From positions 2,776,995-2,840,994 of the forward strand of contig NZ_CP021023.1 in assembly GCF_002117005.1 (NCBI RefSeq): a stretch of 64,000 nt of DNA, in the 5' to 3' direction. The position numbers and the translations under genes are program-made. Below, one piece after another: positions 3,865 through 25,460 of this stretch. Under the pieces are notes generated by a model. That model was not told the origin of the DNA. It searched no databases and saw nothing but the letters and a program-made list of their open reading frames with translations. Numbering within the stretch: position 1 is the first letter of the stretch; each line of letters opens with the position of its first letter. This DNA is from Sedimentisphaera salicampi. Lineage in GTDB: Bacteria; Planctomycetota; Phycisphaerae; Sedimentisphaerales; Sedimentisphaeraceae.

Positions 3865-4848
<984 letters not shown>

Positions 4849-4873
4849 ATACTTGACTTTTAACACAGTCACT

Positions 4874-5335
4874 CTGTGGTTAATATGTATATTTTCTCTG
4901 CGTACTGCTGTCCACTTATTCCGTCCCGCCTGCGGCGGGCCTACATGCGTGGCTCGGTTTAAATATCTCGTTTTGTGAAATCGCTGCGAAATACTAATGT
5001 CAATCAGAGCCGTGCGTGGAGTCCGCCGAAGGTGAAGAGCCTGTCCGCCGAAGGCGGAAAACAAGCGGATAGATTCGTAGCTCGTAGCAAAATCATTAGT
5101 GAAAAATTAGCGCTGATTAGCGGTTAGTAAATCCTTAGTGCTGCTTAGCGCTGCTTAGTGGCTTATAAATCTCAGCGGGGATTAGCGGTTAAAAAATTTT
5201 CTCTCCGCCTTTTCCTATATTAAATATTTATCCTGTGAATCCTTGCCCCGCAGCCAAAGCGGTTCGGGGCTGTAAATCCTGTCTAAAAAATATCTCCCCT
5301 CCGTGGTTAATGTATCTTTCCCTCTGCGTACTTTT
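4874..5335. repeat. Composite of dispersed intergenic repeats
   Basis: The gap from the IS element to tRNA-Arg (about 600 bases) carries the right remnant of the interrupted family A repeat, mini-hairpins (CCCGCCTGCGGCGGG near 4925; CCGCCGAAGGCGG near 5045), a family B unit of 65-bp period (about 5090-5190), and the CCTGTGAATCC repeat. That last repeat is itself split at 5243-5270 by a 28-base hairpin segment (GCCCCG...CGGGGC). Bases 5336-5470 show nothing recognisable. Confidence 0.7.
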
Positions 5336-5431
5336 GCCCAAAAGAATTGCCGCACGCCCAAAACCTCCCGAAAGACGAAAAACTCTTGATTATGACAGCG
5401 AATCTAATAAAATTCCCCTTTCTCGCATTGC

Positions 5432-5698
5432 TCAGCGGATATTTATCTCAAGAGTTATGCGTTCAGGGCTGCACCCGTAGCTCAGCAGGATAGAGCAACG
5501 GATTTCTAATCCGTAGGTCGCACGTTCGAGTCGTGCCGGGTGTGTTTGATTTTTAACGCCTCTCAAGCCCTCGAAAACGGGGTTTACGGGGCTCTCAGGG
5601 GCGGTTTCGTGTTTCTGAATATTCGCAGAATTAGCAGTATTGTTTTGTAAATACCCATATTCACGGCTTACACTCTCCTCAATAAAGCAGTCAAGCAT
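5432..5698 (-). pseudogene. Possible integrase C-terminal remnant reading into tRNA-Arg
   Basis: An 88-codon frame whose ATG overlaps the primase stop (ATGCTTGA, 5691-5698). The middle (PVNPVFEGLRGVKN) resembles the tail of tRNA-targeting tyrosine recombinases. The remainder (ARLERATYGLEIRCSILLSYG) is simply antisense tRNA-Arg in translation. No catalytic recombinase motif is present. It may be a relic or chance translation. Confidence 0.3.
5471..5544 (+). tRNA. tRNA-Arg (UCU)
   Basis: A complete cloverleaf: acceptor GCACCCG pairs with CGGGTGT, D-stem GCTC/GAGC, anticodon stem ACGGA/TCCGT with loop TTTCTAA (anticodon TCT), T-stem GCACG/CGTGC around TTCGAGT, discriminator G. CCA is not encoded. 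The 3' end borders an accessory module on the opposite strand, so it is a plausible integration site. Confidence 0.95.
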
Positions 5699-7466
5699 TT
5701 TTCTTTTTCTTTTTCTTTTTTGAAATTATGCCAATTTCTTTCAGGCTCAAGGTTTCGCTGTCGAAATCGCAGGCAAACTCTAAACCGTGCCCTTTGCCGT
5801 TTCTCGCCTTGATAATGTGCATTGTGCGGTTGTGCTGATATTCAGCGCCCCCGCAGCCTGTGATTATCCTGCTCTCTTTCGGTTCGTGAGCTTCAAGCCA
5901 GAATGCTGTTTGAGCAAACCTGCCGTAAGCGGCCCCGCCTGCAAGCTGATTCAAATCCGGCAGGCTCACGGTCTTTGCAGGGTGCGTTACAAGCACAACT
6001 GAGCAGCCGAAATCTGTTGCTGCTGCTTTAATCCTCTGCATAAATGCGGCGTCCTCAATCCAAGGCTTTGACGCCTGAGCAGCAGCAGTTACCGGATCAA
6101 TCGTAATAATCCTGAAGCCCGCCTTTGCCCGCTCCTGCGTCCAAGCTGCCAGCTGCTGAAGGGTTAGCTGCAGCTGCGGGGATGTCCAGAGCTGGCGGCC
6201 AATCGCCTCCAGAGCCTCGCTGCCGGATTCATACGCCTCTCGGGCGAGTTCGCCGTTGTCTTTAATCCACTCGGGATTTGTGAGCTGCGGAAGCTCTGAT
6301 AGCTGAGCAAGCGCCCGCATTAAATGAAATTCCCTGTCCTCCTCCAGCTCGTAAACGCAGGCCTTCACTCCGGACTGAATCCAGTATGAAAGAGCCTGAA
6401 GCAGCACAAAGCTTTTAGAAGCCCCCGGGCTGCCGCAGAGCAGTGTTACCGTTCCCGGGATGAGCGAGTTTGTGAGCCGTGAGAGCAAATCAAACGGCCA
6501 TCTAATCGCTTCAATCTTCCCGCTGATGGTGTCTTCAATCCGTTTCAAAACACCGCTCGAAACGCCCTCGGGCTCTGCGAACTGCACTGCGTGCTGAAGC
6601 GCTTCGGCAGGGCTTGCCTTGCAGCGATTCACGGCCATCTCCAGATAATCGCAAACATCGCCCTTGCCCTCAATGTCCAGCATAAGCGGCTCGATTTTCG
6701 ATATCCTCGGGGCGGGCTCAAGCTTTGCGAGGATCTCCGCAACCTGCTCAGCGTGCTTCCTTCCCTGCTGGTCTGCGTCCGGCCAGAGGATTATGTTCTT
6801 ACCCGCCAGCGGCTGCCAGTCTGCCAAGGCTGCCTTGCCCGCTCCGCCCGGACTCGTGGTTGCGATATATCCGTGCTCTGTGAGCTTATGAACGCACTTC
6901 TCGCCCTCAACAACAATCACAGAATCCGCCTGCCGAATCCTCGTTCGGTTATACAGCGGCCAAGGCTTCGGCGGGGCTTTCAGCTCGAAGCCGCCCTGAG
7001 CAGCCGGCCTCGCCTGCCGGAAAGTCTTTCCCTGCTGAGTTTGAGAACGAATAACTACCATCTCGATTCGCCTTGTCTCGGGGCAGGTGTATTTGTAAAC
7101 CGCCTCAATCGTTCCCGGGCAGGCTGCCTTTAAGCTCTCGATGTCGGGAAATATTTTTACGCCTTTTCCCATTCGCCCATTTTTTGAGCTGTTCGCAGCC
7201 CCTGAGTTTCGCTGTGCAGCCTTAATCAGCTCGGGGGCAGTCTCACCCCTACCCTTCGCTTCAACGTCCCACACAGAGCCGCAGAAGCCGCAGGAATGGC
7301 ATTTGTACATCCAGAAGCCAGCCTCGTTCTGGTAAATGCCCGCTGAGGGGTGCTTGTCTTCGTGAAACGGGCAGCAGCAGGAATCGCCTTTAAGCTGAGC
7401 CCCGGCGGCCTCAAGCTCTGCGGCCAGAGCCGTCCGGTCCCTCTTGCGAAGGTCTGCAAAGCCCAT
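5691..7466 (-). CDS. Primase-helicase (CHC2 zinc finger, Toprim, RecA-like ATPase)
   Basis: A 591-residue protein for element replication. A CHC2-type zinc site is visible as C32-x2-H35 and C56-x2-C59. The Toprim domain shows VVEGEK (E188) and the DxD motif at D230/D232. A RecA/RepA-type ATPase follows, with Walker A GSPGASKS (345-352) and a hydrophobic strand ending IITID (about 450) as Walker B. The architecture resembles phage and plasmid primase-helicases that both prime and unwind. The C-terminus is a run of seven lysines encoded by an A-rich tract (5701-5730), a slippery sequence that could frameshift. The start overlaps the stop of the upstream replication gene by one base. Confidence 0.85.
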   Translation of the reverse strand: MGFADLRKRDRTALAAELEAAGAQLKGDSCCCPFHEDKHPSAGIYQNEAGFWMYKCHSCGFCGSVWDVEAKGRGETAPELIKAAQRNSGAANSSKNGRMGKGVKIFPDIESLKAACPGTIEAVYKYTCPETRRIEMVVIRSQTQQGKTFRQARPAAQGGFELKAPPKPWPLYNRTRIRQADSVIVVEGEKCVHKLTEHGYIATTSPGGAGKAALADWQPLAGKNIILWPDADQQGRKHAEQVAEILAKLEPAPRISKIEPLMLDIEGKGDVCDYLEMAVNRCKASPAEALQHAVQFAEPEGVSSGVLKRIEDTISGKIEAIRWPFDLLSRLTNSLIPGTVTLLCGSPGASKSFVLLQALSYWIQSGVKACVYELEEDREFHLMRALAQLSELPQLTNPEWIKDNGELAREAYESGSEALEAIGRQLWTSPQLQLTLQQLAAWTQERAKAGFRIITIDPVTAAAQASKPWIEDAAFMQRIKAAATDFGCSVVLVTHPAKTVSLPDLNQLAGGAAYGRFAQTAFWLEAHEPKESRIITGCGGAEYQHNRTMHIIKARNGKGHGLEFACDFDSETLSLKEIGIISKKKKKKKNA

Positions 7467-8326
7467 CAGTCCAGCCCTCGCTTTCCGAAGGCAATCTCGA
7501 GATCTTCCGGCGTAGGATCTCGGCGCTGGAAGATTTCGCCGGCAGGCTGAGCTTTTGGCTTCAGGCTGCCTTGAGCTCGTGAAAGCCAGCTGCCGAGGAA
7601 ACGGGGCATCCCCGCTGCGGTCTTCCGTTTGGCAGGATTATCCCGCAGCCACTGCTGAGCCTTGCGAAACTCGCTGTCAATATCCACTTCTGCGAAGGTG
7701 TTTTCATACTCTTCGAGTTTGGCTTTTGGTAGTGAGTAATCCTTCCCTCCCTTCAGCTCAAAAACATATCCGGAAGGCTCGTCCACATTACTCTTTTCTT
7801 TTCTTATTCTTTTATGGTCTAATTTTTGAACCGGTTCCGGTCTATTTTTTAGACCACTGCCGGTACAGTTTTTAGACCGGTCTAATTTTTGAACCGGTCT
7901 ATTTTTTAGACCACTACCGGTACAGTTTTTAGACCAGTCTGGTTTTTGAACCGGTCTATTTTTTAGACCACTACCGGTACAGTTTTTAGACCAGTCCGAT
8001 TTTTGAACCGGTCTATTTTTTAGACCACTACCGGTACAGTTTTTAGACCAGTCCGATTTTTGAACCGGTCTCATTTTTGTACCGGTTTTATATGTGTTAG
8101 ATTTGCCTTTGCCCGTTCGATTTACTTCCAGAAGTCCAGCGGATTCCAGCCGGTTTATGGAGCTGCAAACAGTTCCAGCGGCAAGCCCGCTTTTTTCCTG
8201 AAGCTTCCTCCTGCCCGGCCAAGCCTCGCCCTGATTTTCATAATTTTGGATAATCGCAAGGATTATCTTATCGCTTGCCCGCAGGTCTTTCCGTGCTGCT
8301 GTATCGGCATCCAATTTAAAGAACAT
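7466..8326 (-). CDS. Winged-helix replication protein with internal 19-residue repeats
   Basis: About 287 residues. The N-terminal 75 or so form a winged helix-turn-helix (KIILAIIQNYENQGEAWPGR, then LAAGTVCSSINRLESAGLL), typical of element-borne replication initiators. Residues about 90-170 are four tandem 19-residue repeats (NRPVQKSDWSKNCTGSGLK and variants). The C-terminal region (EFRKAQQWLRDNPAKRKT...FLGSWLSRAQ) looks like the helicase-loader/replisome-organiser tails of phages. The ATG at 8326 has an AAGGAGG site 10 bases upstream; an in-frame TTG at 8332 is possible. The one-base overlap with the primase suggests a replication operon. Its DNA repeats may be an origin (see 7837-8090). Confidence 0.75.
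   Translation of the reverse strand: MFFKLDADTAARKDLRASDKIILAIIQNYENQGEAWPGRRKLQEKSGLAAGTVCSSINRLESAGLLEVNRTGKGKSNTYKTGTKMRPVQKSDWSKNCTGSGLKNRPVQKSDWSKNCTGSGLKNRPVQKPDWSKNCTGSGLKNRPVQKLDRSKNCTGSGLKNRPEPVQKLDHKRIRKEKSNVDEPSGYVFELKGGKDYSLPKAKLEEYENTFAEVDIDSEFRKAQQWLRDNPAKRKTAAGMPRFLGSWLSRAQGSLKPKAQPAGEIFQRRDPTPEDLEIAFGKRGLD
7837..8090 (-). repeat. 57-bp tandem repeats inside the replication gene, candidate origin iterons
   Basis: Units start at 7837, 7894, 7951, 8008 and 8065 (partial), exactly 57 bp apart. Each full unit holds an inverted repeat GGTCTA-TTTTT-TAGACC and a TACCGGTA-type palindrome (GCCGGTA in the first). A pyrimidine- and AT-rich stretch (7788-7815) lies at one side. Iterons inside the initiator gene next to an AT-rich tract is the layout of the phage lambda O gene origin. 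Whether this is an origin or only a coding repeat is not proven. Confidence 0.55.
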
Positions 8327-8486
8327 CTTCAATCCGCCTCCTTTTTATTCTCTGCTGTCTTTGCTGAAGCTCAGCATTTGCAAAACAGAGGTTGAAATCG
8401 TATCTGTCTGGTGTTATCAGCCTGAATCGCTTTTGCCTCGCCTCCGCTGCCGCCTGAGCTCGGGGGCTCTTTTTATTCCGCCTCAT
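8316..8486 (-). CDS. Small basic hypothetical protein
   Basis: A 56-residue, arginine- and lysine-rich protein (MRRNKKSPRAQ...QRIKRRRIEDVL). The chosen ATG at 8486 overlaps the upstream regulator stop as ATGA and has a GAGGTGG ribosome site. Its end overlaps the start of the replication gene. The tight packing argues for a real, translationally coupled gene. Function not recognised; it may bind nucleic acid given its charge. Confidence 0.5.
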   Translation of the reverse strand: MRRNKKSPRAQAAAEARQKRFRLITPDRYDFNLCFANAELQQRQQRIKRRRIEDVL

Positions 8487-8905
8487 TTTCCACCTCGTGA
8501 TTTGTATTGTCTCCACCGGTCGGCTGGGATAAACCCGCCGGCCTCAATGCTTGCCTCAAACCATCTTTCCAGTTCCGCTGCCGGAAAAAGCAGTTTGCGG
8601 CCTGCCCGCAGGGGGCGAACGCCAATCCTGCCGTCTGAGAGCATTTCGTAGAATAGAGTTTTACCAACATTCAATTTGGCCCGCACTTGCCCGCTTGTGA
8701 GCATTGCTGATTCAGCTTGCTTCGGTTTCACCTCCTTTCGCTTTGCTGCCATTTCAGCGAGGCTTGCTTTAACTGCCTCCAGTTCAAATTTGTATTTGCG
8801 TCCAATCCTGAGACAAGGAATCTTCCCCGCCTCCACTTGCTCTTTGATCCAGCTGAGCGGCAAGTCCAGCTCATTTGCAATTTGGTTTATATTTTTCAGT
8901 TTCAT
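8483..8905 (-). CDS. Double AlpA/excisionase-type helix-turn-helix protein
   Basis: About 140 residues with two consecutive MerR/HTH_17-type domains. The first runs from KNINQIANELDLPLSWIKEQ to GRKYKFELEAV. The second runs from LTSGQVRAKLNVGKTLFYEM to AGRKLLFPAAELERWF. Each has the usual helix-turn-helix followed by an IGRKxxF or AGRKLLF wing. Such proteins act as excisionases or transcription regulators of integrated elements. The ATG at 8905 is preferred; a TTG at 8914 falls inside the inverted repeat at 8907-8937, which is probably its operator. It is the first gene of the replication operon. Confidence 0.75.
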   Translation of the reverse strand: MKLKNINQIANELDLPLSWIKEQVEAGKIPCLRIGRKYKFELEAVKASLAEMAAKRKEVKPKQAESAMLTSGQVRAKLNVGKTLFYEMLSDGRIGVRPLRAGRKLLFPAAELERWFEASIEAGGFIPADRWRQYKSRGGK

Positions 8906-8906
8906 A

Positions 8907-8937
8907 ATACCCAAAGTTTAACAACTGCTTTGGGTAT
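8907..8937 (-). promoter_or_regulatory. Perfect inverted repeat, probable autoregulatory operator
   Basis: ATACCCAAAG (8907-8916) and CTTTGGGTAT (8928-8937) are perfect 10-base reverse complements with an 11-base spacer, one base upstream of the regulator ATG. Position and symmetry fit repression of the replication operon by its own HTH protein. Confidence 0.6.
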
Positions 8938-9084
8938 CAAGTGGGGGTGTTAGGTGGGTTTTTTGGTGGGATGGCGGGGTTTTTTATTTTTTCAGCGGAA
9001 TTTTAATAGGGACAGTTACCCATTTATTGATGCGTGGCAGAGTGGCAAGTTGCGAGTGGCAGAGTGGCGAGTAGCTCTTTGCAA

Positions 9085-9250
9085 AATCATTAGTGAAAAA
9101 TCAGCGCTGATTAGCGGTTAGTAAATCCTTAGTGCTGCTTAGCGCTGCTTAGTGGCTTATAAATCTCAGTGCTGATTAGCGGTTAGTAAATCCTTAGTGC
9201 TGCTTAGCGCTGCTTAGTGGCTTATAAATCTCAGTGCTGATTAGCGGTTG
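9085..9250. repeat. Family B repeat, two tandem 65-bp units
   Basis: TTAGCGGTTAGTAAATCC begins at 9111 and 9176, and a third partial unit begins at 9241, an exact 65-bp period. Single units of the same family occur near 2566 and 5117. The 572-base gap 8915-9486 otherwise holds the operator above, an AGAGTGGC repeat fragment and the possible gene relic at 9338-9487. Confidence 0.75.
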
Positions 9251-9337
9251 AAAAACATCCCCCTCCGTTTCCTCCGATATCTCTCCGCTACAGGCGGACT
9301 GGCTCTGTAAAAAAATATCTCCAACATCAGAGCAGGA

Positions 9338-9487
9338 TTATGTATTGCGATGAAGCGTCCTGCCGGCATAGAGCTTTCCCTCATTTATGCGTCTGTCCTC
9401 CTCCAATGTGAATTTGATTTTTACCGAGTCTGTCAGCGTTTCTTCGCAGTTAATATATTTATGGGTAGGTGAAATGCCCAGTGCGGC
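9338..9487 (-). pseudogene. Possible C-terminal gene fragment
   Basis: Minus-strand translation without a start codon reads ...KYINCEETLTDSVKIKF, then TLEEDRRINEGKLYAGRT, and ends HRNT-stop at 9338. The charged, protein-like composition differs from the neighbouring repeats, but it follows a stop and lacks ATG, GTG or TTG. It could be a relic of a gene cut away by repeat activity. Not identified. Confidence 0.25.
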
Positions 9488-10881
9488 TATTCAAGCTGAG
9501 CCCTGAGTTTGTTTACCCTTGTAGAAACGTCTCTGTATGAATAATCCAGCTGGGCGAGTTTTCTGTAAATATTGTAGGCCTGCTGGAATCTTCGGCCGTG
9601 TTCGAGGGCTCTTGCGAGGTTGTACCTGAGCTCTTTGTAGATATCGTCATAATCGCTTGTATGCTGCTTGAGGGCCTCCTCAAATATATCAACAGCATCA
9701 GCATACCACCCCTTGTTGAAAAAGCACATACCGAGCATATTCAGCGAGGAGATTCGCAGGGAAGGCCTGTTTCGAGACTTCTGAAACAGCGGTATCGCCT
9801 CGTCGTATTTCTTTTTCTGCATAAGGCGAACGCCGAGCTCATACTTGTAGTTTGCTTCTGTGGGATAGTTTTCCACGCACCCTGTGTAGTGCTGCAGCTC
9901 TGCTTCTGAGAGCTTCTGCACCAGTTCTTTGAGCCTTGCGGTATTTTTCTCCGTTTTCCCGTGCGTTTCAATATCGCTTTTGGTGTGTCTGATTTTTGCC
10001 TTGAGGTCTCTTATTATTATCTCGCCAAGAGCACGCTGATAGGCGAAGTCTCTGGTCTCCTTGTGCCAGTTATTCAGTTTCTGGCAGACCTCCATAAATA
10101 GCTTCGGGTCTTCAAGCTGTGCGGCCTTCTTTGCATATTCGAGCCTGAGATTCTGTGAATCAGGGGTTTGTTTAAGCCTTTCTTCGAGCTGCTGAACCTC
10201 TTTTACCCTGTAGCTGTCGGTTTTGTGAACAGCATCCTTCTGCTGGAGCTCTTCCTGCTTGTCCATATCCTGAACGGCCTTGCGGTAGTCATCGCCAGTA
10301 TCATAGCGGCCTTTCTGGATTGTCTGCTTGGCCATGAGATTTTTAATCTCGTCGTCCAGATTCATATCCCCTGGCTTTGCCTGTTTGGCAAGCCTGCAGG
10401 CATAAGCTGCTTCCTCGTAATGTTCAATAGAGGAAAAAGCCTCTTTAAGCTGCATAAGCGTTGAGAATGGACGTTTCTCCTTGTTCTTCACAATATAGAG
10501 AAGCAGTTTGCTTATCCATTCCAAAACCTCATTAAAACCGCCTTTGCGAGCGGCCTTTATTATCATCTCTGCGTATCCAACGTTTTCGGGGTCTTTTGAA
10601 AAAAGATACTCAGCGTGAGTGAGCTCTTCAACAGGATCCTTAAAGCTGGTTTTAGAAAAGCGTTCTTTTATCCCGGGCTTTTTGCCCCCGTCGGCCTGCC
10701 TGAGCAGGGCGAGCTTTCTCAGAGGTTTGTGCCCTTCTTCAACTGCTTCCGGCCATCGCCTGATTCCCTCGATATAAAGCTCCACTGCATAATCGTAATT
10801 ATCTACCGATGCCACTTCCTCAGCGCGGTTAAAGAATGCTCTTGCGCTTTCAGCAGTCCTTTTATCGTTGTTTTCAACCAT
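9487..10881 (-). CDS. Tetratricopeptide-repeat protein
   Basis: A 464-residue soluble protein made mostly of TPR-like helical pairs. They are clear at the N-terminus (RAFFNRAEEVASVDNYDYAV) and in the C-terminal third (YKYELGVRLMQKKKYDEAI; LGMCFFNKGWYADAVDIF; YNLARALEHGRRFQQAY). No signal peptide or membrane segment is seen. A central charged region (about 190-330) is probably coiled coil. TPR proteins of this kind act as scaffolds. The gene is alone, divergent from glyA, so context gives no specific role. Confidence 0.75.
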   Translation of the reverse strand: MVENNDKRTAESARAFFNRAEEVASVDNYDYAVELYIEGIRRWPEAVEEGHKPLRKLALLRQADGGKKPGIKERFSKTSFKDPVEELTHAEYLFSKDPENVGYAEMIIKAARKGGFNEVLEWISKLLLYIVKNKEKRPFSTLMQLKEAFSSIEHYEEAAYACRLAKQAKPGDMNLDDEIKNLMAKQTIQKGRYDTGDDYRKAVQDMDKQEELQQKDAVHKTDSYRVKEVQQLEERLKQTPDSQNLRLEYAKKAAQLEDPKLFMEVCQKLNNWHKETRDFAYQRALGEIIIRDLKAKIRHTKSDIETHGKTEKNTARLKELVQKLSEAELQHYTGCVENYPTEANYKYELGVRLMQKKKYDEAIPLFQKSRNRPSLRISSLNMLGMCFFNKGWYADAVDIFEEALKQHTSDYDDIYKELRYNLARALEHGRRFQQAYNIYRKLAQLDYSYRDVSTRVNKLRAQLE

Positions 10882-11061
10882 AAAAACTCTTTTAATAGTA
10901 TAAATAAAGAAATTCCTGCCGGCAGATAATTAAAATTAGAAATATTCGGCCGGTTCAGGCTGATTATTTTCGGTTTCACATTATAGAGTTTTGATTATAA
11001 TGTTGTCAATAAAATACTTGCCCGAAAGCGGCGAGTTTGTTATAAGGTTCGCCCTGGCGAA

Positions 11062-11092
11062 GTTGTTCAGCGGCGAATATAATACGAACAAC
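11062..11092 (+). promoter_or_regulatory. Inverted repeat around a -10-like element upstream of glyA
   Basis: GTTGTTC (11062-11068) and GAACAAC (11086-11092) are perfect 7-base reverse complements flanking TATAAT (11078-11083). TTCGCC (11048) can also pair with GGCGAA at 11056 or 11072. It looks like an operator over a promoter, but no good -35 box is visible. Confidence 0.4.
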
Positions 11093-11155
11093 GGTAAATT
11101 ATTCCGGTTTTCACATTTTCTAATCTTAAATTAAGTTTAATGGAGAGATTTAATA

Positions 11156-12406
11156 ATGCTGAAATATTATGACCCTCAGGTCAATGAACTTATTAAACAG
11201 GAAGAAGCCAGACAGGCATCAACCATACGTCTGATTCCTTCTGAGAATTATGTATCTCAGAATGTTATGCAGGCTACAGGCAGCTGCCTGACAAACAAGT
11301 ATGCAGAAGGCTATCCAAACAAGAGGTATTATGAAGGTCAGCAGGTTACTGATCTGATTGAAGACCTTGCCAAGCAGAGAGCAGGCGATGTTTTCAGGGC
11401 TCCGCACGTAAATGTGCAGTCTTATTCGGGCTCTATAGCAAATATGGCGGCGTATCTCGCCCTTGCCGATCCGGGGGATACGATAATGGGGCTTTCCCTT
11501 CCCGACGGCGGCCATCTCACCCACGGGTGGAAGGTAAGCGCTACCGGCAAGGTGTTTAAGTCTGTTCAGTATCCTGTGAATTATGATACTGATCTGTTTG
11601 ACTACGACCAGATAGCCGAGATTGCAAAAGAAAACAAGCCTAAAATACTCATCGCAGGAACCTCCGCCTATCCGAGAAAGATAGACTTCAAGGCCTTCAG
11701 AAAGATAGCCGATGAGGTTGGTGCGTATCTTGTGTGCGATATCGCCCATATAGCAGGTCTTGTGGCGGGCGGGGCGCACGAGAGCCCGATGGAGGTTGCC
11801 GATGTTGTAACCACTACCACGCACAAATCACTAAGAGGCCCGAGAGGGGCTTTGGTTATGTGCAGGGAAGAGTTTGCAAAGGCGATCGACAAGGCTGTAT
11901 TCCCGGGTATGCAGGGCGGCCCGCATATGCACACTATCTCCGGAATCGCAGTGGCGATGAAAGAGGCAGGAACAGAATCCTTCAAGGAATACGCTCATCA
12001 GGTAGTGAAGAACGCAAAGGCTCTTGGAGAAAAACTTCAGGAATACGGTTTTAAGCTCGTAACAGGCGGAACAGACAACCATCTTCTCCTCCTTGATATG
12101 CGAAGCAAAAATATCTCGGGCAAGAAAATGGCCAAGGCTCTCGACAGGGCGGGCATTGTTACAAACTGCAATACCGTTCCAAACGACCCTGCTCCCCCGT
12201 TTAACCCCAGCGGAGTTAGAATCGGAACTCCCGCTGTTACTACCCGCGGGATGAAGGAATCCGATATGGGCGAAATTGCTGAGATGATAAATGATACCGC
12301 AGATAATCTGGAAGACCTTCAGGCAATAGACAGGATCGGCAAGAGAGTTAGATTTTTCTGCAGCCGATTCCCGCTGCCCAAATCGTTTATTCATTCAGAG
12401 GAATAA
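11156..12406 (+). CDS. glyA: Serine hydroxymethyltransferase
   Basis: A 416-residue PLP enzyme converting serine and tetrahydrofolate to glycine and 5,10-methylene-tetrahydrofolate in the cytoplasm. Family landmarks are IPSENYVS (27-34), the YAEGYPNKRYYEG substrate loop (49-61), and the PLP lysine K224 in TTTTHKSLRGPRG. The length is normal for the family. The ATG has GGAGAG upstream. A strong terminator follows at 12413-12440. It supplies one-carbon units; the next gene is a nucleotide-sanitising enzyme, but the terminator separates their transcripts at least partly. Confidence 0.96.
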   Translation: MLKYYDPQVNELIKQEEARQASTIRLIPSENYVSQNVMQATGSCLTNKYAEGYPNKRYYEGQQVTDLIEDLAKQRAGDVFRAPHVNVQSYSGSIANMAAYLALADPGDTIMGLSLPDGGHLTHGWKVSATGKVFKSVQYPVNYDTDLFDYDQIAEIAKENKPKILIAGTSAYPRKIDFKAFRKIADEVGAYLVCDIAHIAGLVAGGAHESPMEVADVVTTTTHKSLRGPRGALVMCREEFAKAIDKAVFPGMQGGPHMHTISGIAVAMKEAGTESFKEYAHQVVKNAKALGEKLQEYGFKLVTGGTDNHLLLLDMRSKNISGKKMAKALDRAGIVTNCNTVPNDPAPPFNPSGVRIGTPAVTTRGMKESDMGEIAEMINDTADNLEDLQAIDRIGKRVRFFCSRFPLPKSFIHSEE

Positions 12407-16733: not shown

Positions 16734-17957
16734 ATGGAATTTTCACGAATTTTGATTTTGTCTTTATTCATCAGCTCTTCCTTTGTTTTTGCATCAGCTG
16801 ATGAAGGTTTAGACGGCAAGCAGGAAGTTATCAGGCAGCTTGAAAATCTCTTCAGCGAGGAAATCAAGCCTCAAACCAATATCACTGAGGTTCAGGAAGA
16901 CCCTTATGTCAAGGTTGTTGACGGGAAGGACGGGCTTTCAACGCTTGTTTACAGGTGCCGATATTCAGACTGCAAAGAGGTTTCAGACGGACTTGAAGCA
17001 GCTATAAGCCGAAACGGGCTTATCGAAGAGAGCGAAGAGAAGAATATGGTAATCGTAAGCGATACTACCGACCGGATTGAACAGATCAAGGAGGTGATTA
17101 TTGCGATGGATGTTCCGATACCTCAGATACTCGTTGAAGCTAAGGTTATAGAGGTCTCTGTAAGAGATGATTACCGCCAGCAGCTGAGTTTTGTTTACGA
17201 CGAGGAATCCAAATCTCTCCGTCCGCCGGGAGCAGACCCAGACACAAACTACACACAGAAGCCGGATATGCTGGATTTCTCGCCATATTCGGTAGGCGTG
17301 GAAGGGCAGATTAACACCTTCAACTATCTTGCCAACTGGCTCAAGAAAGCTAATAATGCAGAAATCCTGTCTTCTCCAAATGTGGTTGTATCGCTGAATA
17401 AACGTGGGAATATCGTTACTGGTGAAGACCTTCCGATTCAGTCAACATCCACAACAGGCAGCACCGTTAATACTGATATTAAATACAAAAGAACAGGCAT
17501 ACGCCTTGAGGTTACTCCCACCAGAATCAACGAGAAGACCGTTAAGCTTCAGGTTAACCCAGAGGTGAGCACGGTAACGCGGTACGAAGAATTCAACAAC
17601 ACACAGACGCCTGTGATTACTATCAGGAACGTGGAAACAGAGCTTACCGTTCAGGACGGCGAGATTATTATGCTGGGCGGGCTGTACTCCACAGAAGACC
17701 TCAAGCAGGACAGCAAGGTTCCTTTCCTTGGAGATTTGCCGCTTATTGGCGGGCTTTTCAGGTCGAAGGATGATTCAAAGATAATCAAGCAGCTGATTTT
17801 CGTTATGAAAGTTAAAGTTGTGCAGAATTCCGTAGGAACTTTTGTCGATATCGAAAGACAGGCAGAGGCTATCAGAAAAACCGGAGACCAGATAAGAAAT
17901 TCCAGCGCACTCTTCCCAAACAGGACAAACGAAGAAGATAACGGAGAGAAAAAGTGA
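16734..17957 (+). CDS. Short secretin-family outer membrane channel protein
   Basis: A 407-residue protein with a signal peptide (LILSLFISSSFVFASA). Residues about 70-130 form one secretin N1-like module (LVYRCRYSDCKEVSDGLEAAI ... IEQIKEVIIAMDVP). The secretin domain follows from QILVEAKVIEVSV to the C-terminal signature VPFLGDLPLIGGLFRS. It lacks the multiple N domains of type II secretin GspD. It is first in a four-gene operon with a membrane-fusion protein and a MacB-type ABC transporter, overlapping the next gene by GTGA. The context suggests it is the outer membrane exit of that exporter, which is inference. Confidence 0.85.
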   Translation: MEFSRILILSLFISSSFVFASADEGLDGKQEVIRQLENLFSEEIKPQTNITEVQEDPYVKVVDGKDGLSTLVYRCRYSDCKEVSDGLEAAISRNGLIEESEEKNMVIVSDTTDRIEQIKEVIIAMDVPIPQILVEAKVIEVSVRDDYRQQLSFVYDEESKSLRPPGADPDTNYTQKPDMLDFSPYSVGVEGQINTFNYLANWLKKANNAEILSSPNVVVSLNKRGNIVTGEDLPIQSTSTTGSTVNTDIKYKRTGIRLEVTPTRINEKTVKLQVNPEVSTVTRYEEFNNTQTPVITIRNVETELTVQDGEIIMLGGLYSTEDLKQDSKVPFLGDLPLIGGLFRSKDDSKIIKQLIFVMKVKVVQNSVGTFVDIERQAEAIRKTGDQIRNSSALFPNRTNEEDNGEKK

Positions 17958-19432
17958 ATAGTAAAACCACTGCTTTAATAATTCTTGCAGCTGGTTTGCT
18001 GATTTCAGTGTCTGGCTGCGAGGATGCAAAAAATCACAGCAAGAGCTCCAAAGATTCAAGCCACCTCGACCGATACTTCACCGTTGAGCCCCGTGATATA
18101 GTTATCGGGGTGGAAGAATCCGGCACAGTAAACTCGCTTAAGAACCATAAAATAAGGTACGAGGCATCCTACCGCACTCAGATTAGCTGGGTGATTGATG
18201 AAAACTCTGAGGTGGAGAAAGGCGATGTGCTGGTTAAATTTGATGATGAAGAGCTTGTCTCCCAAGTGGATGAGTTTGAAAATCAGCTTGAGAATGCTAG
18301 GAAGGAGCTGAGCATTGCCAAGGAAGAGCTGGAAATCCAGAAGAGTGAGAACGAGGCAAACCTCAGGCAGGCTCAAGACAGGGTTACTGATGCCGAAGAG
18401 GAGCTTTCGAAGTTTTTGAGGCTTGAAGGCCCAAAACTCAGGGACGAACAGACCGTTGAAGTGGAAAATGCTCGTGAAGCGGTTGATGAAGCTGAGCAGG
18501 CATATGAGGAGGCATACGAAGAGCATCAGTCAACCGTATATGACAATCAGGAAGAAAAGAACGAGGCAGAAGAGCATCTTGAAACGCTGAAAGGCAGAAT
18601 TGAACGTGAGCAGATCAATTATGAAAACGTTCTCATTGATGACAAGATATTCAACAGATACACATACCGCAACAGAATAACTACTTTGGAGAATAACCTT
18701 GAGCAAAGCCGGCTGGACCTGAAAAAAACTCAGGTTCGCGCTGATTCAAGCCTCATACAAAAACAGAATCAGATTCAGAGGCATAAAAACGATATCGAGA
18801 GGCTCGAGAAAGAACTCAAACGCCACAGGGAATACCTCACCATGATGGAACTTAAATCCCCTGTTGATGGAGTGGTTCTCTACGGCGATACAGATGACAG
18901 ATGGCGGGACGAAGAGCCTACCGAAGGTATGGATGTCCGCAGGGGGGAAGTTCTTCTAACGATCCCCGATCTCTCGCAGCTTATGATTGATATGGACCTG
19001 CCGGAGATATACCGTTCAAGGGTGAATATTGGAGATGAGGCAGTGGTTACTGTCGAGTCTATACAGGGGCTCTCTGTTAAGGGTGAAGTTTCCGATATAT
19101 CTCCTCTGCCCGTCAATCAGCTCCGCTGGGATCCCGCATCGCCTAAGATTTACGAAACCAGAATCACCGTGCCGGAAGAGGAAAAAGACGAGAGGATGGT
19201 TACGGGGATGAATGTGCAGGTGAAGATTATCTCTCAGAGGCTCAAGGATGTTCTGGCTGTCCCGATAGAGGCTGTTTTCGAGAAAGACGGCAGGCTCTTT
19301 GTTTATCGAACGAAAAACGGCAGCCCCGAGGTTGTTTATGTTGAGATAGGCCCTGCAGACGATGATTTTGTAAGCATAGAAAAAGGGCTTAATGCCGGCG
19401 ATAAAGTATGCCTGTTTGAGCCTGTTGAATAA
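17954..19432 (+). CDS. HlyD/MacA-type membrane fusion lipoprotein
   Basis: 492 residues with GTG start overlapping the secretin stop. The lipobox VSGC places the lipidated cysteine at 22. A biotinyl-lipoyl half (SYRTQISWVIDENSEVEKGDVLVKFDDEEL) leads into a very long coiled-coil hairpin (about 90-300), followed by the second lipoyl half (ELKSPVDGVVLYG), beta-barrel and membrane-proximal domains (PDLSQLMIDMDLPEIYRSRV; VPIEAVFEKDGRLFVY). In tripartite pumps such proteins bridge the inner membrane transporter and the outer membrane duct. The hairpin is longer than in typical MacA, perhaps to reach a secretin. Confidence 0.88.
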   Translation: MNSKTTALIILAAGLLISVSGCEDAKNHSKSSKDSSHLDRYFTVEPRDIVIGVEESGTVNSLKNHKIRYEASYRTQISWVIDENSEVEKGDVLVKFDDEELVSQVDEFENQLENARKELSIAKEELEIQKSENEANLRQAQDRVTDAEEELSKFLRLEGPKLRDEQTVEVENAREAVDEAEQAYEEAYEEHQSTVYDNQEEKNEAEEHLETLKGRIEREQINYENVLIDDKIFNRYTYRNRITTLENNLEQSRLDLKKTQVRADSSLIQKQNQIQRHKNDIERLEKELKRHREYLTMMELKSPVDGVVLYGDTDDRWRDEEPTEGMDVRRGEVLLTIPDLSQLMIDMDLPEIYRSRVNIGDEAVVTVESIQGLSVKGEVSDISPLPVNQLRWDPASPKIYETRITVPEEEKDERMVTGMNVQVKIISQRLKDVLAVPIEAVFEKDGRLFVYRTKNGSPEVVYVEIGPADDDFVSIEKGLNAGDKVCLFEPVE

Positions 19433-19452
19433 AACCATTTGACTGTGAGAAG

Positions 19453-20145
19453 ATGATGAACTCTGTTATAGAGCTCAGTGAAATTCATAAAAGCTATCAG
19501 ATCTCCAAAACGAGAAACGTCCCCGTGTTAAAAGGGATCAACTTTTCTGTTAACTCAGGGGAGTATCTGGGGATAATGGGCGCCTCAGGGTCAGGCAAAT
19601 CAACCTTGCTGAACCTGCTTGGTCTTCTCGATTTGCCCACAAAAGGGAGCTACTGCCTTGAAGGTTCAAACACAAGCACACTTGGAGACCGAAGGCTCGC
19701 TGAGCTGAGAAACAAAAAAATCGGTTTCATCTTTCAAAGCTTCAACCTTTTCGGCTATCTCAGTGTTGCCCAAAACATTGAGGTTCCTCTTGTTTACGGG
19801 AATATGAATAAAAAGAAACGCCAGACAATCTCAGAACAGCTCGCCGAGCGTTTGGGACTTGGCCACAGGCTCAAACACCGTCCATACGAGCTCTCTGGCG
19901 GCGAGAGACAGAGAGTGGCAATAGCGAGAGCCCTTTCCAACAGCCCCACGTTCATCCTTGCTGATGAGCCTACGGGCAATCTCGATGAGAAAACCGGAAA
20001 CGAGGTTATGGATCTGTTCAGAGAGCTAAATGAAAACGGCACTACTATCATTGCAGTAACCCACAACCCCGAATACGAGAGTTTCTTCGACAGGGTTGTG
20101 TATCTAAGAGACGGGAAGGTGGAAGCGGATTATGAAACTCAGTGA
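19453..20145 (+). CDS. MacB/LolD-type ABC transporter ATPase
   Basis: A 230-residue ATPase. Walker A is GASGSGKS (43-50), the signature LSGGERQ, Walker B ILADEP followed by TGNLDEKTG, then the switch histidine in AVTHNPE. It would power the permease encoded by the next gene, which it overlaps by 14 bases. MacB-type transporters are mechanotransmission machines that drive periplasmic export rather than transport across the inner membrane. ATG at 19453 or 19456. Confidence 0.93.
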   Translation: MMNSVIELSEIHKSYQISKTRNVPVLKGINFSVNSGEYLGIMGASGSGKSTLLNLLGLLDLPTKGSYCLEGSNTSTLGDRRLAELRNKKIGFIFQSFNLFGYLSVAQNIEVPLVYGNMNKKKRQTISEQLAERLGLGHRLKHRPYELSGGERQRVAIARALSNSPTFILADEPTGNLDEKTGNEVMDLFRELNENGTTIIAVTHNPEYESFFDRVVYLRDGKVEADYETQ

Positions 20146-21400
20146 TCTATACGCACTTTCTCTGCACAATCTCTTCAAGCATAAGGTAAGAAGCGGACTC
20201 ACCTCTCTGGGGGTAATCTTCGGAACCGCAAGCGTGATAGCAATGCTCGCAATTTCTGAGGGCGCACGTGAAGAATCACTCGCACAGATTCAGTCTATGG
20301 GGATTGAAAATATCATCGTTTACAGCAAAAAGCCCTCTGATGTAGGCAGTGAAACTTCGAGCCAGAATCAGAGCATGGTTGAGCAGTTCGGAATCACGGA
20401 TAAAGACCTCCAGCATTTTCGTATGATGGATAATGTTGGTAAAATCACCACTGTAACCGATACCAGAATGGAAGTTCTCTCAGGAACAAAACTGCTTGAT
20501 TTGAAGCTGGTGGGAGCGGATAAAACCTTTTTAGATTCCACATCAGCTGAGCTTATCAGAGGCAGATGGCTTTCCCCTGTAGATGCTAAATCGCAGGCGA
20601 GAATTTGCGTTGTCGGCAAAAACGTAAAACGCAAGTATTTTGGCCTTAGCTGCAGGAATGTTATAGGCAGAACGATAAGGGCGAAAAATTCTATCTGGAG
20701 AGTTGTGGGGGAGATTGAAGACCCTTCGGGCTCGGAGCTTGCAAATCTGGGAAGCATAAACGATATGATCATTGCACCTCAGAAAACTGTTTCCGACCTC
20801 TACGATGGATATTCCTATGATATGAAGAGGCGAAGTGTGAACATTACTGTTGTGCATTATGATTTGATAATAGCGAAGGTGAAAGAGCTCAAATTCATAA
20901 ACAACACTGCCAGAAGGCTGAAGAACTATATGGTGAAGGTGCATAAAGAGAAGAAAGACTGGGAGGTTATAGTCCCTTATTCGCTTTTCAAGCAGAGACA
21001 GAAAACCCAGCAGATATTTACCGTAGTTATGGGCTCAATCGCAGGGATTTCTCTCATCGTCGGCGGCGTGGGCATTATGAACATTATGCTTGCAAGCGTT
21101 TATGAAAGACGAAAAGAGATTGGCACAAGAAGAGCCCTTGGGGCGAAAAAGGAAGACATCCTGCTTCAGTTCCTCGTGGAAACAGTTACACTAACTGCCC
21201 TCGGCTCTATTGTGGGTATCGCAACAGGCATAGGGCTTGCGCAGTCTGTGGCATACTATGCCGGCTGGCCGGTGATATATTCTTACTGGATTATGGTAGT
21301 GGCATTTGCTATTGCCTGCTCTATCGGCATTATTTTCGGCACATACCCCGCAATGAAAGCAGCAAAGCAGAATCCTATAGAAGTGCTCAGAGCAGAATAA
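20132..21400 (+). CDS. MacB-type ABC transporter permease
   Basis: A 422-residue FtsX/MacB permease. One N-terminal membrane helix (SGLTSLGVIFGTASVIAMLA) is followed by a periplasmic domain of about 240 residues, then three C-terminal helices (IFTVVMGSIAGISLIVGGVGIMNIM; LVETVTLTALGSIVGIATGIGL; WIMVVAFAIACSIGIIFG). The cytoplasmic coupling segment ASVYERRKEIGTRRALGAKKEDI is typical. The last gene of the secretin-MFP-ATPase-permease operon. Confidence 0.93.
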   Translation: MKLSDLYALSLHNLFKHKVRSGLTSLGVIFGTASVIAMLAISEGAREESLAQIQSMGIENIIVYSKKPSDVGSETSSQNQSMVEQFGITDKDLQHFRMMDNVGKITTVTDTRMEVLSGTKLLDLKLVGADKTFLDSTSAELIRGRWLSPVDAKSQARICVVGKNVKRKYFGLSCRNVIGRTIRAKNSIWRVVGEIEDPSGSELANLGSINDMIIAPQKTVSDLYDGYSYDMKRRSVNITVVHYDLIIAKVKELKFINNTARRLKNYMVKVHKEKKDWEVIVPYSLFKQRQKTQQIFTVVMGSIAGISLIVGGVGIMNIMLASVYERRKEIGTRRALGAKKEDILLQFLVETVTLTALGSIVGIATGIGLAQSVAYYAGWPVIYSYWIMVVAFAIACSIGIIFGTYPAMKAAKQNPIEVLRAE

Positions 21401-22927: not shown

Positions 22928-23494
22928 ATGAGTACCTCGCAGATTGTTCTTATTGTAGTTGGCGTTGTTCTGGTATTGCTGATTTTCTGGGCGATTGGAA
23001 TGTACAACTCGCTTGTACGTTTCCTCAATCAGGTGAAAAACGCATGGTCTCAGATTGATGTGCAGCTAAAGAGAAGGCACGATCTTATCCCGAATCTTGT
23101 GGAAACAGCCAAGGGATATATGAAACACGAACAGGAAACCCTGCAGGGCGTTGTTGATGCCAGGAGCAGGGCGCTTGGAGCCGGTAATGTTAATGAGAAA
23201 ATAGATGCTGAACAGAAGCTCAACGGTGCTATGAGCCAGTTCCTGCTTACTGTGGAAAACTATCCGGACCTCAAAGCCAATCAGAATTTCCTCGCTCTGC
23301 AGGAAGAGCTTACGAGCACTGAAAACAAAATAGCCTTCGCCAGGCAGGGATATAACGATCAGGCAATGACATACAACAACAAAATTTCGATGTTTCCATC
23401 AAACATTGTGGCAGGGATCTTCAGATTTACTAAATGGAACTACTTCGAGGTGGAAAACGAGCAGGAGCGTCAGGCCCCAGAAGTGAGCTTCTGA
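22928..23494 (+). CDS. lemA: LemA family protein
   Basis: A 188-residue protein with one N-terminal membrane helix (IVLIVVGVVLVLLIFWAIGMY) and the LemA helical bundle (YNSLVRFLNQVKNAWSQIDVQLKRRHDLIPNLVETAKGYMKHE). LemA genes usually stand next to an htpX-like M48 peptidase; here the two are 0.7 kb apart with higBA between. Role in the envelope unclear. Confidence 0.93.
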   Translation: MSTSQIVLIVVGVVLVLLIFWAIGMYNSLVRFLNQVKNAWSQIDVQLKRRHDLIPNLVETAKGYMKHEQETLQGVVDARSRALGAGNVNEKIDAEQKLNGAMSQFLLTVENYPDLKANQNFLALQEELTSTENKIAFARQGYNDQAMTYNNKISMFPSNIVAGIFRFTKWNYFEVENEQERQAPEVSF

Positions 23495-23538: not shown

Positions 23539-23820
23539 ATGATAGGCGGTTTCCAAGATAAAAAGCTTGAGCTGTTTTGGCTCGAAGATAAAAGAAGAAA
23601 TATTCCCATAAATATAGTTAATGTTTTAAGAAACAAGTTGAATATGATTGCTTTTGCCGAAGTGATTGAGGATTTGAGGGTTCCGCCTTCAAATCATCTT
23701 GAGGCGCTTAAAGGGAAATTAGAAGGCTTTTATAGTATTCGAGTAAACAAGCAATGGAGATTAGTTTTCAAATGGCATGGTAATTATGCATTTAATCTCA
23801 GACTAACAGACTATCATTAG
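23539..23820 (+). CDS. higB: HigB-type toxin (RelE/ParE superfamily)
   Basis: A 93-residue RelE-fold protein with the HigB-like features LRVPPSNHLEALKGKLEGFYSIRVNKQWRLVFKW and the terminal LRLTDYH. HigB toxins cut mRNA on the ribosome. Toxin precedes antitoxin, the higBA order. The ATG sits right after the -10 box with no ribosome site, so translation probably starts on a leaderless message. Confidence 0.88.
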   Translation: MIGGFQDKKLELFWLEDKRRNIPINIVNVLRNKLNMIAFAEVIEDLRVPPSNHLEALKGKLEGFYSIRVNKQWRLVFKWHGNYAFNLRLTDYH

Positions 23821-23840
23821 TAATTAAACGAGGTGTTAAA

Positions 23841-24146
23841 ATGAAATCATTAAATATACCGGCAGTTCCGGTTCATCCGGGCAGGATTTTGCAGGAAGAG
23901 TTTCTAACTCCGCTGGGTATCACCCAGACGCAGCTGGCAAAACATATTAGCGTACCTCTCCGCAGGGTAAATGAGATTTGCAGAGGCAGGCGGTCTGTGA
24001 GCCCGCAAACTGCATGGCTGCTTTCTCAGGCGTTTGGAACTACGGCTCAGTTCTGGCTCAACGGGCAGATAACTTACGATTTGGCTGTGGCAAAGCAGGA
24101 AAACCGAATCTATGATGTTGGGCCTATTGTGAAATCTACAGGATGA
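23841..24146 (+). CDS. higA: HigA-type antitoxin (HTH)
   Basis: A 101-residue XRE-family antitoxin. The hallmark N-terminus VHPGRILQEEFLTPLGITQTQLAKHISVPLRRVNEICRGRR gives the helix-turn-helix; FGTTAQFWLNGQITYDL completes the domain. It neutralises HigB and likely represses the shared promoter through the 23519-23531 inverted repeat. It has an ACGAGGTG ribosome site and lies 20 bases after higB. Confidence 0.92.
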   Translation: MKSLNIPAVPVHPGRILQEEFLTPLGITQTQLAKHISVPLRRVNEICRGRRSVSPQTAWLLSQAFGTTAQFWLNGQITYDLAVAKQENRIYDVGPIVKSTG

Positions 24147-24200
24147 AAATTAATTTAAACAGGATTGCACGCTTTTGAAGCGGTCTAAGGGATATTTTTG

Positions 24201-25460
24201 ATGTGGGAACTTATCAGAGCGAATAAACGAAAATCAGCCTTTCTAATAACCGTTATGTTTGGTTTTATGCTGTTTCTCGGCTGGTTTATCGGTATGTATA
24301 TTGATCCCGTTTACGGCGGGTATTTCGGCATCCTTGCGGCTTTTGTGATATGGCTGGTTCAGTTTTTGATTGCTGCTGCCTCGGGCGGTAAGGTTTTCCT
24401 TGCCGGCAGCAGGGCGGTTGAGGTTACCAAAGAAAACTACCCCCAGCTCTATAACGTGGTTGAAGAGATGAAGATTGCCTCGGGCCTTCCCGCTATGCCG
24501 AAGGTGTATGTAATACCGGAAAACCATATGAACGCTTTTGCAACAGGCACAAAGCCCGAAAACGCCTGCGTTACGGTAACATCAGGGCTTATGTCCCGTT
24601 TGAACAGGGACGAGCTTCAGGGCGTTGTTGCCCATGAGATGTCTCACATACTCAACCGAGATGTCCTCTATATGACATACTGCGGGATTATGCTTGGAAC
24701 GATTGTTTTCCTCTCTGAGGGGCTGCTCTGGACATTCCGTTTTGGTATGCTCGGCGGCGGCGGGAGATATTCCTCAAGAAGCAAATCTTCCGGCGGAGGA
24801 GGCGGAGGAGCTCAGGTTGCAATGCTTCTGCTGGCTCTCGTGCTTGCGATTCTCGCCCCTATTCTCGCCCAGCTTATGTACTTCTCCATCTCACGCAAAC
24901 GTGAGTATCTCGCTGATGCCTCCGCTGCAAGGCTTACCAGATATCCCGAAGGCCTCGCAAACGCCCTTGAAAAGATCTCAAGGGGCAAGGTTGTGCCGGA
25001 GAAAACAAGCAAGGTGAAAGCACCGATGTATATCTACAACCCCGAAGAAGGCAATGCGATGAAATTCAGCTCGCTCTCAAGCACCCATCCGCCTACCGAG
25101 GAGAGAATTAGAATCCTCCGGAATATGAGCCATGGGGCATCATACAAGGATTATCAGAAATCTTATTCTCAGACGCATGAGGGCAAGAAATCCAACCTAA
25201 TACCAGAGGGAGAGCTCGAAAAAGAACAGAGCGTTTCAAAACGCTCGCCCGCCGAGAGGCTCAATGAAATGAGCGGGAAAGAAAAGGCAAGGGAAATCGG
25301 CGATATGATTATGACCGCAAACAGCTTCCGTTTCCTAACCTGCAATTGCGGGCTGAAGCTGAAAATCCCGCCGGACTACAAACACGAAAAGGTAAAGTGC
25401 CCCAAATGCGGAACTTTGCATAACGTAGCCGCCGCCTCCGCTGCGGCCGCTGCTGTTTAG
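24201..25460 (+). CDS. htpX: HtpX-like M48 zinc metallopeptidase with C-terminal zinc ribbon
   Basis: About 419 residues. Two N-terminal membrane helices, the zinc site HEMSH in VVAHEMSHILNRD (about 143), two more helices separated by a glycine- and serine-rich loop (GGGGRYSSRSKSSGGGGGG), and the third ligand region SRKREYLADASAARL. It would degrade damaged membrane proteins. Unlike typical HtpX it continues with a charged linker and a zinc ribbon (CNCGLKLKIPP...KCPKCGTLHN) ending in an alanine run. The annotated TTG at 24198 directly precedes the ATG used here. Confidence 0.9.
   Translation: MWELIRANKRKSAFLITVMFGFMLFLGWFIGMYIDPVYGGYFGILAAFVIWLVQFLIAAASGGKVFLAGSRAVEVTKENYPQLYNVVEEMKIASGLPAMPKVYVIPENHMNAFATGTKPENACVTVTSGLMSRLNRDELQGVVAHEMSHILNRDVLYMTYCGIMLGTIVFLSEGLLWTFRFGMLGGGGRYSSRSKSSGGGGGGAQVAMLLLALVLAILAPILAQLMYFSISRKREYLADASAARLTRYPEGLANALEKISRGKVVPEKTSKVKAPMYIYNPEEGNAMKFSSLSSTHPPTEERIRILRNMSHGASYKDYQKSYSQTHEGKKSNLIPEGELEKEQSVSKRSPAERLNEMSGKEKAREIGDMIMTANSFRFLTCNCGLKLKIPPDYKHEKVKCPKCGTLHNVAAASAAAAAV

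Follow-up and report, generated by a model that had tools for sequence, protein, structure and literature searches.

The window analysed here, a stretch of 64,000 nucleotides from the genome of Sedimentisphaera salicampi (G000; 3.19 Mb, one contig), carries a secretin gene immediately upstream of the genes for a MacAB-type transporter. Secretins, which form wide rings in the outer membrane, are known from type II and type III secretion systems (T2SS, T3SS), pili and filamentous phages. To our knowledge, all well-studied pumps of the MacAB kind use the narrow TolC duct. The locus raises the question of whether a secretin can be the outer-membrane partner of an ABC exporter. In two reviews of tripartite pumps, TolC-like ducts are the shared outer-membrane exit (PMC5985334, PMC8277102). 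A search of open-access journal literature found no earlier description of a secretin-MacAB system. Our reading, to which we assign a probability of about 0.8, is that the operon codes for a trans-envelope exporter of the MacAB type (type VII ABC) in which a dedicated short secretin replaces the TolC-family duct.

The four genes are all located on the forward strand, between positions 16734 and 21400, and overlap or lie no more than 20 bp apart. Both the open reading frames (ORFs) and the family matches agree with the first-pass annotation, which had listed here a secretin, an adaptor, a MacB-type ATPase and a permease, overlapping or nearly so. The first gene (16734..17957) encodes a short secretin of 407 aa (ORF list, Pfam, predicted structure). 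It has a Sec signal peptide, one Secretin_N domain (residues 71-131), a secretin core (residues 203-364) and a short helical C-terminal tail. Pfam reports Secretin (1e-42) and the single Secretin_N, and the PF00263 score of 145.9 bits is above the curated cut-off of 27.5. The predicted structure is of moderate confidence (pLDDT 67) and its top PDB match is GspD (5wq8). The second gene (17954..19432) has a GTG start, overlaps the secretin gene by 4 bp and encodes a lipidated MacA-type periplasmic adaptor of 492 aa (ORF list, Pfam, NCBIfam, predicted structure, PDB fold match). It matches HlyD_D23 (Pfam, 5e-12) and has RND_mfp at the top of its NCBIfam ranking; its lipobox, ISVSGC, can be read directly in the sequence and bears out the lipidation proposed earlier. 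The third gene (19453..20145) encodes the nucleotide-binding subunit (NBD; 230 aa; ORF list, Pfam, NCBIfam, motifs), which matches ABC_tran (1.5e-32) and retains intact Walker A, signature and Walker B motifs, as in MacB. It overlaps by 14 bp the gene of the 422 aa permease (20132..21400; ORF list, Pfam, NCBIfam, TM prediction). The latter matches MacB_PCD (2.8e-26) and FtsX (2.9e-23) and has a MacB-like topology, with four predicted transmembrane segments and a large periplasmic loop between TM1 and TM2. For both proteins the top NCBIfam rank is MacB (PRK10535). Domains, four-TM topology and intact NBD all place the transporter in the MacB superfamily (type VII ABC). A promoter and terminator scan yielded nothing clearly exceeding shuffled background that would fix the operon ends.

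The likeness to MacAB-TolC thus extends to a MacB NBD and permease with four TM segments and a periplasmic domain, co-encoded in one operon with a membrane-anchored adaptor of MacA fold. However, the partner gene in the outer-membrane slot encodes a secretin and not a duct of the TolC/OEP family, and NBD and permease are on separate chains. The Aat/dispersin exporter and PvdRT-type pumps also couple MacB-like ABC units to adaptors and outer-membrane ducts, but their ducts are TolC-like.

The same arrangement recurs elsewhere. A secretin-profile search covering about 85,000 species, which used five such secretins as queries and favours close relatives, gave 18 loci at E<=6e-43 (L138-L155). In each the secretin gene is directly 5' of the adaptor gene, and the MacB genes come next wherever the contig continues. 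Fifteen of these loci were new while the remaining three (L152-L154) are L119, L118 and L125 again. These three, from other families of the window's class, had each shown an adaptor gene 3' of a secretin gene, those of L118 and L119 being among the adaptors most similar to that of the window. The next complete matches (E>=2e-29) are T2SS/T4P secretins without the adaptor. One further secretin-type locus (L188) is found in Planctomycetota. Counting the window and a sister species (G001), the arrangement occurs at no fewer than 20 distinct loci, spread over Lentisphaerota, Kiritimatiellota and Planctomycetota, with secretin-adaptor gaps of -62 to 52 bp (-4 being frequent). The four-gene order is far beyond chance because it is recurrent across three phyla. 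Among 115 Lentisphaerota genomes, the secretin-type adaptor (>380 bits) is present in 25 and the secretin (>300 bits) in 25. These are the same 25 genomes, and a comparison of coordinates places the two genes side by side in every one; a survey for co-occurrence was the check that the first-pass annotation had proposed. The system is present in Lentisphaerota strain zth2, whose genome is complete, as is that of the window. Fisher's test gives 8e-26, a value overstated since the genomes are related. The weaker adaptor matches fetched from this phylum (19) have an adjoining OEP gene in 17 cases and a TolC-type hairpin tip in all 19. In two genomes (G868 and G919) both transporter types occur, and each has the duct that goes with it. 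Secretin and transporter very probably form a dedicated partnership.

The outer-membrane slot is occupied differently in a sister clade. In a comparison of 58 relatives within the window's order, adaptor homologues (~27% identity) are found in OEP-adaptor-ATPase-permease operons. The OEP gene stands where the secretin gene does and usually overlaps the adaptor gene (median -13 bp, 63 pairs). The slot proteins are mostly about 530-650 aa long, and those sampled are assigned to OEP by Pfam. Among the 58, a secretin occupies the slot only in the window genus (G000, G001), and no second adaptor of this family was found in G000. These planctomycetal and Lentisphaerota operons share with the window the transporter family, the gene order and a similar hairpin length, but differ by their TolC-like OEP in the secretin slot and by an L-x6-[S/T] tip that they have kept. 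According to the first-pass annotation, its proposal would fall if a TolC homologue accompanied the transporter in all relatives and the secretin were separable from it. For the secretin-type clade this test did not refute the proposal: secretin and adaptor go together in all 25 Lentisphaerota genomes, and the flanks retrieved contain no TolC-like gene of the sister type. The sister clade of the same transporter does use TolC-like ducts in this slot. Some TolC-type operons (L195, L203 and L206) contain adaptor genes in runs of two or three, which suggests rings of mixed adaptors.

The adaptor carries a trace of this difference. Its closest PDB folds are the MacA chains of MacAB-TolC (9qgy and 5nik). 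In the predicted structure two helices (residues 99-193 and 199-296, 95 and 98 residues) form a long hairpin of ~14 nm, as calculated from ~95-residue helices at 1.5 A per residue, with the turn TVYDN (residues 194-198) at its tip. The coiled coil had been called unusually long. This holds in comparison with E. coli MacA but not with the TolC-type relatives, in which the lipoyl halves are 204 residues apart versus 212 in the secretin type; hairpin length was therefore rejected as an adaptation to the secretin. The tip is more informative. An R-x3-L-x6-S/T motif at the hairpin tip is the TolC-binding site of MacA, AcrA and HlyD, and mutations in it weaken or abolish TolC binding (PMC3391258). 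The window adaptor lacks this RLS/RLT-type docking signature of MacAB-TolC-type pumps. Compared by alignment column, L-x6-[STNAK] occurs in 43/43 adaptors of the TolC type (33 with S/T and 10 with N, A or K) and in 13/13 unlinked adaptors of the same clade. It is absent from all 21 secretin-type adaptors and from the three unlinked adaptors of the secretin clade (0/24); in its place, their tips are longer by 8 residues. A later set, not used to define the motif, gave 19/19 for the TolC type and 0/1 for the secretin type. The strict R-x3-L-x6-S/T pattern separates the two types poorly (1/21 secretin-type versus 14/43 TolC-type) because the arginine is not conserved in either type of this adaptor family. 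The tip lost the TolC-docking signature and gained the 8 residues at the switch of outer-membrane partner. Tip change and partner switch each happened once and count as one correlated event, which limits their weight.

These features suggest how such an exporter may operate. The MacB unit (two NBD and two permease subunits) would bind ATP in the cytoplasm and act mechanically in the periplasm. The lipid-anchored adaptor would form a ring over it, and its hairpins would reach the single N-domain ring of the secretin and transmit MacB motion to the secretin gate, whose opening would release a periplasmic substrate. A continuous duct from inner to outer membrane is fairly probable. We give even odds to a class of ABC exporter in which a secretin ring replaces TolC, a long-hairpin adaptor makes the tip-to-ring connection and the width of the gate allows periplasmic cargo that is folded or bulky to pass. 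We infer physical contact, ring stoichiometry, ATP-driven gating and a Sec-delivered cargo too large or too folded for TolC. A six-fold adaptor ring is mismatched to a 15-fold secretin ring, which counts against a tip-to-ring machine. The substrates that relatives in this transporter class export or extract range from peptides and siderophores to lipids and lipoproteins. The cargo can therefore not be read from the operon, and that it is large or folded is a tentative proposal. MacB itself is described as a mechanotransmission machine that acts on substrates in the periplasm and does not carry them across the inner membrane (PMC5985334; PMC12646458). An alternative is cooperation in two steps and no single duct: the MacAB-like unit would extract or mature a substrate (lipoprotein, lipid or protein) into the periplasm, and the secretin would be a separate exit. 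In its favour, the site of action of type VII ABC transporters is periplasmic, and several of them, such as LolCDE and YbbAP, form no duct (PMC12646458); moreover, contact is not visible in single-chain models. However, an adaptor that retains the full MacA fold, with ~95 residues of helix on each side of the hairpin, is hard to explain without a distal partner, and the change at its tip coincides with the change of partner in the outer membrane. Two-step cooperation is thus unlikely.

Another alternative would reverse the roles: the ABC unit would insert, pilot or gate a secretin that works for another system, for instance a T2SS or a pilus. In favour of this, the operon has no visible pilotin gene, and several orthologous secretins, including that of the window, lack a lipobox. 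The window secretin does share with GspD (T2SS) and PilQ the secretin core and one N-domain. However, it has only one Secretin_N, belongs to a separate clade and has no pseudopilin, Gsp or PilMNO genes nearby. It scores 173.7 bits with the GspD model (cut-off 351) and 143.8 bits with the PilQ model (cut-off 284). The subfamily forms one side of a single branch (SH-aLRT 95) separating it from T2SS and pilus secretins, no T2SS or pilus genes adjoin the inspected secretin-type operons, and the window genome has T2SS- and pilus-type secretins in their own clusters, including a PilQ-like gene with PilMNO-like neighbours. A secretin working for such a system is accordingly quite improbable, and a stray T2SS or pilus gene was rejected on the basis of the same clade and loci. 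The short secretins (about 400-440 aa) of other members of the order were also rejected as orthologues: they fall outside the subfamily and occur in pseudopilin/PilM-like clusters. In L061-L073, their genes come last in clusters that also contain pseudopilin-like, PilM-like and PilO-like genes and resemble a compact T2SS/pilus-like system. The window genome also contains (L110, G000:C1:2141000-2157000, at 6221-11198) overlapping genes for two lipoproteins with secretin domains (510 and 572 aa) and, after them, a gene for a 562-aa lipoprotein-like protein; T2SS, pilus or ABC genes are not evident alongside.

The preferred reading, a transporter with its own secretin, is also consistent with the trees. 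In the permease tree, one branch (support 100/98) parts the secretin-type members, together with the unlinked members of the secretin clade, from the TolC type, and the duct label changes state once. Secretin and adaptor distances are correlated (r 0.87; 0/5000 permutations as high). That the operon is an ordinary MacAB-TolC-like pump with a secretin gene adjacent by chance is most improbable: TolC-family proteins are encoded somewhere in 12/12 secretin-clade genomes tested, but the two genes are adjacent in 25/25 Lentisphaerota genomes, where their co-occurrence is perfect, and the adjacency extends over three phyla, the trees are congruent and the TolC-docking signature is gone. The placement of a secretin in the outer-membrane slot of a MacAB-type system, as first proposed, is strongly supported by co-occurrence, trees and loss of the tip signature. 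The four TolC-like (OEP) proteins of the window genome are all in RND operons. A TolC-like protein encoded elsewhere could nevertheless be shared with the transporter, as TolC is in E. coli. The window permease lies inside a Lentisphaerota/Kiritimatiellota group (100/100), while G002, a member of the same family, is of the TolC type. These positions in the tree make lateral acquisition of the operon by the window genus probable.

Three Planctomycetota genomes (G582, G775 and G688) have adaptor-ATPase-permease units with a secretin-type tip and no duct alongside. In G582 and G775, a solitary secretin of the subfamily (302 and 343 bits) is encoded on a different contig, outside any T2SS/T4P cluster; secretin and transporter are thus co-inherited even when encoded apart. 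These two secretins group with those of L151 and L155 (100), and the permeases of G582 and G688 group with the same two loci (100/98). In G688, whose genome is 81% complete, only a T2SS-like secretin was found and no clear member of the subfamily. L221 (6904-8193) and L222 (6746-8119) each show an isolated secretin of this subfamily that is not linked to its transporter.

The conservation of a MacAB unit alongside a secretin dedicated to it would link two machines thought to be separate, and suggests that an ABC pump can exchange its partner in the outer membrane for an unrelated fold. It also suggests that Lentisphaerota, Kiritimatiellota and some planctomycetes have a dedicated export route, and offers a compact four-gene system for asking how secretin gating works.

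No consistent neighbour gene of the operon was found among the loci inspected. The adjacent ATP-grasp enzyme had been put forward as a modifier of the cargo. This idea loses its ground, as several genes intervene in the sister species and no ATP-grasp homologue is found near the other secretin-type operons fetched. Along with the DUF362 and 275-aa genes, it was rejected as a partner of the system, none of them being found in this context outside the window genus. In the sister species (L076, G001), several genes, one of them Fur-like by eye, lie between permease (4719-6023) and ATP-grasp (255-1223); the two species therefore differ by insertion or loss at this place. Further along the window (23539-24146), RelE/HigB-like and HigA-like genes form, by eye, a toxin-antitoxin-like pair, flanked by a LemA-like gene (22928-23494) and an M48/HtpX-like protease gene (24198-25460).
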